Part shown: piece after piece, positions 7,969 through 11,103 of the stretch
Layout: every line of letters starts with the position of its first letter
Numbering within the stretch: position 1 is the stretch's first letter
Assembly (NCBI GenBank): GCA_030671985.1
Contig: DAOVHI010000020.1
Location: forward strand, 1-14,410
Reading direction: 5' to 3'
DNA length: 14,410 bases
Source of the DNA: JAHJDO01 sp030671985 [NCBI: bacterium]
GTDB lineage: Bacteria > JAHJDO01
Position numbers and translations under genes: made by a program
The notes under the pieces: model-generated
The model's database searches: none
What the model saw: the letters and a program-made list of their open reading frames with translations, nothing else
What the model was told of the DNA's origin: nothing

Positions 7969-8460
7969 TTGAGAGAGAATAGGAAAAAAGAGGAAGCAGA
8001 AGGTCAGGAACTAGTAGAGAAGGTTGTGAATGTAAACAGGGTTGGTAAGGTTGTAAAGGGGGGAAGAAAGTTTGGTTTTAGTAGTCTTGTTGTAGTGGGC
8101 GATGGAGGTGGAAAAGTAGGGTATGGTATAGGTAAGGCAAACGCAGTGCCTGAGTCAATAAAAAAAGCTCTCCAATCAGCAAAGAAGAATATGGTGGATG
8201 TTTTAATTGTAGATACAACAATTCCGTTTGAAATAATAGGCCGTTATGACGCGGCGAGGATTATGTTGAAACCTGCTTCAAAGGGAACGGGTGTAATCGC
8301 AGGAAGCGCGGTTAGAGCCGTGTTAGAAGCCGTTGGCATTCAGAATGCTTTAACAAAGTGTTTGGGATCCAATAATCCAACGAATGTTGTTAGAGCAACA
8401 ATTGAAGGCTTGAGAAATATATCAGAGATTTATGAACTATCAAAAAAAAGGCACGGATAA
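7969..8460 (+). CDS. rpsE: 30S ribosomal protein S5
   Basis: S5 lies on the back of the 30S body, lines the mRNA entry tunnel with S3 and S4, and affects decoding accuracy. The 163-residue protein starts from TTG. It has an N-terminal double-stranded-RNA-binding-like domain with [20 protein letters not shown] and [20 protein letters not shown]. The C-terminal domain shows [20 protein letters not shown] followed by LEAVGI, then [16 protein letters not shown]. The stop TAA touches the rplO ATG directly. rpmD (L30), which often sits between these two genes, is absent. Confidence 0.98.
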
Positions 8461-8610
8461 ATGATATTAAGTAATTTGAAAGTTTCTGAGGGAGCTAAGA
8501 AGAGAAAGAAAATAGTTGGGCGTGGCAATGGCTCTGGTCATGGCTAAACTGCCTGCAAAGGGAGCAAAGGGCAGAGATCAAGATCTGGCGGAAAAGTTCG
8601 CCGTGGTTTT

Positions 8611-8619
8611 GAGGGAGGA
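8611..8619 (+). promoter_or_regulatory. Possible internal ribosome binding site in rplO
   Basis: GAGGGAGGA ends three bases before the in-frame ATG at 8623. It is also the coding sequence of the conserved Glu-Gly-Gly in the FEGGQMP motif, so its existence may owe nothing to initiation. If the upstream TAA is real, this site could start a truncated L15. Confidence 0.4.
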
Positions 8620-8622
8620 CAA

Positions 8623-8901
8623 ATGCCCCTCTATCGCAGGGTACCAAAAAGAGGGTTTACGAGTCGCTCAAGAGAGAAAATAGAAATTATAAATGTAGAA
8701 AAATTAGATTGTTTTAAGGATGGTTCAATAGTGAATCATGAGCATCTTATAGAGAAGGGGCTGCTAAAGTCTCAGGATAGTTTAATTAAAATTTTGGGCA
8801 GTGGAGATTTAAAAAAAAAGCTAAATGTAAAAGCGCATAGCTTTAGCGATGGTGCTGCTCGGAAAATTAGAGATGCCGGGGGGACTACAGAGGTTATATA
8901 A
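8623..8901 (+). CDS. rplO: L15 fragment, possible reinitiated product
   Basis: This is the longest open part of the interrupted L15 gene: 92 residues from MPLYRRVPKRGFTSRSREKI to the natural stop. It holds the globular C-terminal domain, including the IIGxx-like LIEKGLLKSQDSLIKILGSG region and the closing FSDGAARKIRDAGGT. It lacks the first 54 residues, which include the rRNA-penetrating glycine- and lysine-rich arm. There is no in-frame ATG, GTG or TTG between the TAA and 8623. The stop overlaps the secY start as TAATG. Whether it is made as a separate protein is unknown. Confidence 0.45.
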   Translation: MPLYRRVPKRGFTSRSREKIEIINVEKLDCFKDGSIVNHEHLIEKGLLKSQDSLIKILGSGDLKKKLNVKAHSFSDGAARKIRDAGGTTEVI

Positions 8902-10232: not shown

Positions 10233-10892
10233 ATGTATATAATTTTATTAGGGGCTCCGGGAGCAGGTAAGGGGACACTGGCTAAAATGATTGAGAAGAA
10301 ATTTGGTATATCTCATTTGTCTACAGGGGATATTCTCAGAGATAATGTTAATAGAAAAACTTGTGTGGGAAATCAAGCCAAAGAGTATATGAATAATGGG
10401 AAACTGGTTCCTGATGATATTATGATACAGATGGTAAAGGGAAGAGTTCTCGAGGAAGATTGTAAAACTGGTTTTGTGTTGGATGGGTTTCCCAGGACGA
10501 TAGAACAAGCCGAGGCATTGGAATTGATATTTAATGGACTTAATGTAACGATTGATGCTGTTCTTAACTTGAAAGCATCTCAGGAGACAATTATAGAAAG
10601 ACTTTCCGGGAGAATAATATGTAATGGGTGCGAAGTAATTTATCATACGGAAAATATTCCTCCTAAGTTTGAGGGTAAGTGTGACAAGTGTGGTGATAAA
10701 TTGTATCAGCGCGATGATGATAAAAAAGATGTTGTTAAAAAAAGATTGATAGTGTATAAGACACGAACAAAAAAATTAATTTCGTATTATGAACGGCAAA
10801 ATTCCTTCTATGAAATTGATGCTAACAAAAAGGCTGATGAAATGTTTGTGGAAGTCTGCAAAAACTTAGAAAAAGTTGGTAAAAGTGGGTAA
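10233..10892 (+). CDS. adk: Adenylate kinase, zinc-type long form
   Basis: Adenylate kinase catalyses ATP + AMP = 2 ADP in the cytoplasm. The 219-residue enzyme has the P-loop GAPGAGKGT (7-15), the AMP-binding segment [12 protein letters not shown] (28-39), and [14 protein letters not shown] (83-96). Its long LID domain (about 125-162) has four cysteines, C130/C133 and C150/C153, that match the structural zinc site of Gram-positive-type enzymes, followed by the conserved YQRDDD. AAGGGGAG precedes the ATG. It lies between secY and infA as in many spc operons, but map, the usual next gene, is missing. Confidence 0.98.
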
Positions 10893-11103
10893 AGAAGAAG
10901 CGATAGAAGTAAGAGGCAAAGTAATAGATATGTTGCCTAATACAAAATTTAGAGTAGAGCTGGAAAATGGGCATACAGTACTTGCTCATCTTGGCGGAAA
11001 AATGAGAATGCGGTATATAAAAATTCTTTTGGGAGACGAAGTAAGTGTTGAACTTTCCCCTTATGATTTAACGAGAGGACGAATCGTATACAGGTTTAAA
11101 TAA
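10885..11103 (+). CDS. infA: Translation initiation factor IF-1
   Basis: IF-1 is a small OB-fold protein that covers the A site of the 30S subunit during initiation. From GTG 10885 the product is 72 residues, [20 protein letters not shown] onward, ending [15 protein letters not shown], the standard length and end for the family. A TTG at 10876 in the same frame would add three residues and also lies inside adk. I prefer the GTG because it matches the usual MAKEEAIEV start. The gene overlaps the adk stop by eight bases. No strong Shine-Dalgarno sequence is visible, so coupling to adk translation is likely. rpmJ follows after two bases. Confidence 0.95.

Follow-up and report, generated by a model that had tools for sequence, protein, structure and literature searches.

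An in-frame TAA, probably a base error, in the L15 gene (rplO) of a fragmented draft bacterial genome

The DNA analyzed here (the window) is a stretch of 14,410 nucleotides that makes up the whole of contig 107 in a draft genome of 1,253,468 bases, 152 contigs and 92% completeness; from these fragmentation and completeness figures we infer that the genome is metagenome-derived. The window contains an S10-spc-alpha ribosomal cluster, its genes being named from their translations and L15 by profile. The gene for ribosomal protein uL15, rplO, lies where bacterial RplO is expected, in the spc operon before secY (Table 1), and its terminal TAA (8899-8901) overlaps the secY ATG at 8901, a TAATG overlap that was preserved in the window and in three congeners (4/4). 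On the other side, rpmD (L30) is missing between rpsE and rplO (window 8460-8461) and the rplO ATG directly follows the rpsE stop; in the three congeners rplO is also found close behind rpsE.

Table 1. Features of the rplO region, in window coordinates.
Feature	Position	Strand	Details and basis
rplO frame (ribosomal protein uL15)	8461..8901	+	146 codons, one internal stop; profile and congener alignment
In-frame TAA, codon 29 of rplO	8545..8547	+	Assembled sequence
28-codon stub, the product if the stop is real	8461..8544	+	Frame and profile
Codons 30-54, left untranslated by a real stop unless it is read through	8548..8622	+	Private-codon counts
Possible restart from the Met55 ATG, giving a 92-residue C-terminal part	8623..8901	+	First in-frame start past the stop
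GGGAGG, Shine-Dalgarno-like, 4 nt 5' of the Met55 ATG	8613..8618	+	In conserved Glu-Gly-Gly codons

The L15 frame is open at all codons but codon 29, and in the assembled sequence it is thus interrupted once, reading ...VGRGNGSGHG 5' of the TAA and TACKGSKGQRSRSGG... 3' of it. Residues 1-28 match positions 2-27 of the TIGR01071 profile (bacterial uL15/RplO) with 28.7 bits, and residues 55-146 match positions 54-143 with 81.8 bits, above the cut-off of 77.95; register is kept on both sides of the stop. When read through, the window rplO aligns along its length with those of three congeners at 80-83% amino-acid identity, which shows that the frame is not open merely by chance. A previous inspection of the letters alone (the sequence-only reading) had described an in-frame TAA replacing a lysine in an otherwise intact, in-register L15 gene, and this description was borne out in each of its parts. 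Compared with an ordinary bacterial rplO (uL15, TIGR01071), the window gene is the same in place, length, frame, conserved residues and secY overlap, and differs from it in having a stop within the frame. Codons 28-29 are GGC-TAA in the window and GGG-lysine in the three congeners, two adjacent bases (8544 and 8545) being different, the first of them silently. The nearby ATGGCT (8528-8533; repeated at 8540-8545) was considered as a template for mutational copying and discarded, two matching bases being no evidence. Searching the window's own genome with PF00828 returned the window rplO as the sole match, and neither this search nor the comparison with other genomes, which included the window's own, turned up another L15 there.

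The sequence-only reading had proposed comparing rplO in sister genomes. Among the four other congeneric genomes rplO is intact in three, with a lysine codon and no TAA at position 29, and was not found in the fourth (G001, 62% complete). Moreover, L15 was present in 95 of the 97 genomes searched (own included), with an internal stop in the window genome only. We also aligned 109 relatives (29 from the 97-genome search and the best 80 matches listed, 47-58% identity), in none of which does the aligned stretch contain a stop; the codon-29 column is lysine in 93 and G, T, R, Q, F or S in the remaining 16, showing that lysine is not strictly required at this position. A phage search for near-identical DNA gave no match, and neither did viral contigs searched with a degenerate pattern spanning the stop site. 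Among the relatives examined, in collections that may omit records very near the window, the stop is private to the window assembly.

TAA is a working stop codon in this genome, as had been supposed from the sequence. It terminates 16 of the 28 listed window genes (TAG 9, TGA 3) and was found at 107 of the 196 complete ends among 214 long frames from the sampled contigs plus the window, being the commonest stop in both sets. This usage, together with the lack of any other mid-gene stop in the 100 congener ORFs compared below, leaves a general reassignment of TAA unsupported, in agreement with the sequence-only reading. Suppression is also unlikely, given that an anticodon UUA is carried by none of the 38 tRNA genes found in the 92% complete draft, a set which is visibly incomplete (Asn and Ile tRNAs, for example, are missing); the only UAA-anticodon tRNA among the 38 is a leucine tRNA. 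No tRNA genes were found within the window.

Purifying selection acted on rplO on either side of the stop. The dN/dS of the window gene against the three congeners was 0.15-0.18, whereas one pair of congeners gave 0.41 (with a dS of only 0.13) and another 0.23, and the dN/dS of rplO is near the top of the range for ribosomal genes of the window. Codons private to the window were 5 silent and 2 replacing in codons 1-28, 5 silent and none replacing in codons 30-54, and 17 silent and 14 replacing in codons 55-145; in codons 30-54 the three congeners displayed private silent/replacing counts of 2/2, 4/1 and 2/2. Although the numbers are small, five silent changes out of five in codons 30-54 would have a probability of about 0.001 if this segment had been free to drift throughout, thus indicating that the stop is either young or not real. 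A rough Poisson bound places any loss of translation within the last 20% of the window lineage's branch, and downstream of the lesion we saw no relaxed selection of the kind that would mark a long-standing pseudogene.

The error rate of the assembly was explored by comparing congener ORFs with the sampled contigs and the window. From 356 ORFs, 222 were kept after removal of shadow frames and 100 matched at ≥60% identity (some window genes being counted twice, from congeners G002 and G003); in these 100 ORFs, which span 22,429 residues, a true mid-gene stop was seen in rplO alone. Eight rows had a stop or a split: two correspond to rplO, two to queries whose start had been set too far upstream, with the stop among their first 12 residues, three to minus-strand frames opposite window genes and one to a split match without a stop. 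Without shadow-frame removal, 30 of 157 rows had a stop or a split. Scans for broken genes based on codon usage were rejected; one of them recovered only 304 of 615 simulated stops and missed rplO itself, and its eight candidates were, by eye, gene ends or non-coding frames. The clean state of the sampled genome neither proves nor excludes an error at 8545. Of note, about 5% of random coding substitutions yield a stop (2070/40680), so that about 20 coding substitution errors suffice for one nonsense error. Local assembly errors are well described for metagenome-assembled genomes (available text of PMC7111523), and short-read errors have been reported to cluster after motifs ending in GG, or after GGC according to an earlier study cited there (available text of PMC4787001).

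Taken together, these results suggest that the TAA is probably a base error in the consensus or assembly of a fragmented draft, the explanation that the sequence-only reading had also placed first. We infer that the base is wrong from the 152-contig, 92% complete state of the draft, from the absence of the stop in the 94 further genomes that matched and in the aligned relatives (29 plus the best 80 listed), and from the private-codon counts in codons 30-54 together with a dN/dS of rplO that is not above that of the congener pairs. The TAATG overlap kept in all four genomes points in the same direction, since termination at codon 29 would presumably uncouple secY, as do the few coding errors needed for one stop and, weakly, the fact that base 8545 follows GGC. 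If so, the real rplO would be intact and would function as an ordinary L15 gene. Against a base error, the sampled genome is clean and the assembly thus not poor overall; position 8545 lies well within the contig, far from its ends; the lysine is replaceable and loss of L15 is survivable elsewhere, so that a real mutation is possible; and the dN/dS of rplO sits at the upper end among the window ribosomal genes. The strengths that we attach to this and to the other explanations are judgements, leaning on priors as much as on results. A lone private stop in a draft, if an error as is likelier here, is a reminder that a read check is needed before any biological reading.

A genuine nonsense mutation that arose recently in the strain or subpopulation sampled, with L15 absent or present as fragments only and a cost in growth, is a tentative second explanation, to which we grant a substantial minority of the probability. 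The selection evidence caps only the age of the stop, and where the assembly was sampled it is clean. There is moreover a close laboratory precedent: the available text of PMC5319836 describes five viable rplO frameshift mutants of M. smegmatis, comprising three alleles (rplO-1 to rplO-3) in which L15 goes out of frame at residue 26 or 28 of 147, nearly the site of the window stop, the most closely studied of them (rplO-1) having slower growth and impaired 70S assembly. The same text cites work (Akanuma 2012, Shoji 2011) in which L15 is conditionally dispensable in E. coli and B. subtilis. By analogy a null rplO mutant is possible. The M. smegmatis alleles arose under laboratory selection, in strains whose sequenced genomes revealed them, whereas the window lesion is one unverified draft base. 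A mutation of this kind must also dominate the assembled population despite its growth cost, would probably uncouple secY as well, and would have no substitute in a second L15 gene as far as the genome search goes. Essentiality of rplO in M. tuberculosis is termed indeterminate in the available text of PMC5319836, and rplO is listed among 79 core genes of Mollicutes in that of PMC4014445. The sequence-only reading held that it would be notable for a universal ribosomal protein to carry a real lesion; the viability of the M. smegmatis frameshifts (available text of PMC5319836) and the conditional dispensability of L15 weaken this claim. Even if genuine, the lesion would be a modest novelty; it would be a wild counterpart of the laboratory L15 mutants.

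We also examined, once the stop was already known, a possible restart at Met55, the next in-frame ATG, GTG or TTG past the stop. Its predicted Shine-Dalgarno pairing of -11.8 kcal/mol, scored against a generic anti-Shine-Dalgarno that may differ from the 16S of this genome, is stronger than at any of the 27 gene starts tested in the window, a set without rpsQ, the next strongest being rpsE and rpsD, both with -11.5 kcal/mol. The 60 internal in-frame ATGs of 12 window genes include none with a site as strong, the congener Met55 sites score -7.6, -7.6 and -8.8 kcal/mol, and 5 of the 109 relatives (29 plus the best 80 listed) match the pairing strength. These values would suit a split gene, with a stop at codon 29 and a restart at Met55, the product being an L15 that lacks the N-terminal arm, while secY stays coupled. 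Nevertheless, the conserved G-rich peptide GFEGGQ with the codon usage of the window produces a site this strong with a probability of 0.44, and the strength at Met55 is thus not unusual given that usage; the spacing of 4 nt is short, and the site was noticed with the stop in hand. Furthermore, an alignment of 34 chosen L15 proteins has 21 invariant positions, 12 of which precede Met55 and would be missing from the product, and purifying selection persists in codons 30-54. A split gene, one of the outcomes left open by the sequence-only reading, is for these reasons very unlikely. We give just as little credence to a natural population without the L15 N-terminal arm, in which a real recent TAA and a Met55 restart would leave secY coupled and ribosomes lacking either the L15 arm or the whole protein. 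This locus most likely reflects an error, or a mutation of very recent origin at the most, and not a novel route to the L15 protein.

Readthrough or suppression of UAA to give full-length L15, likewise raised from the sequence alone, could be accommodated by the purifying selection that carries on beyond the stop and by an incomplete tRNA set with room for a missing suppressor gene, yet we regard it as the least credible explanation, TAA being the commonest stop, no UUA anticodon occurring among the 38 tRNAs and no Rfam element matching in the window at gathering thresholds. UAA readthrough is generally too weak to supply a stoichiometric ribosomal protein. A recoding structure near the stop was tried as a candidate and rejected, the fold being mildly stabler than shuffles (z -1.94), with 12 of 200 shuffles equally good.

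Elsewhere in the cluster, the infA frame as listed (10876-11103) begins with a TTG within the terminal part of adk, and its Shine-Dalgarno pairing (0.2 kcal/mol) is the weakest among the starts tested; its true start may differ. The interval between adk and infA is too small for a map gene. In congener G003 (L116, 1118-1922), about 800 bases separate rplC and rplD, compared with a few bases in the window and in G002.
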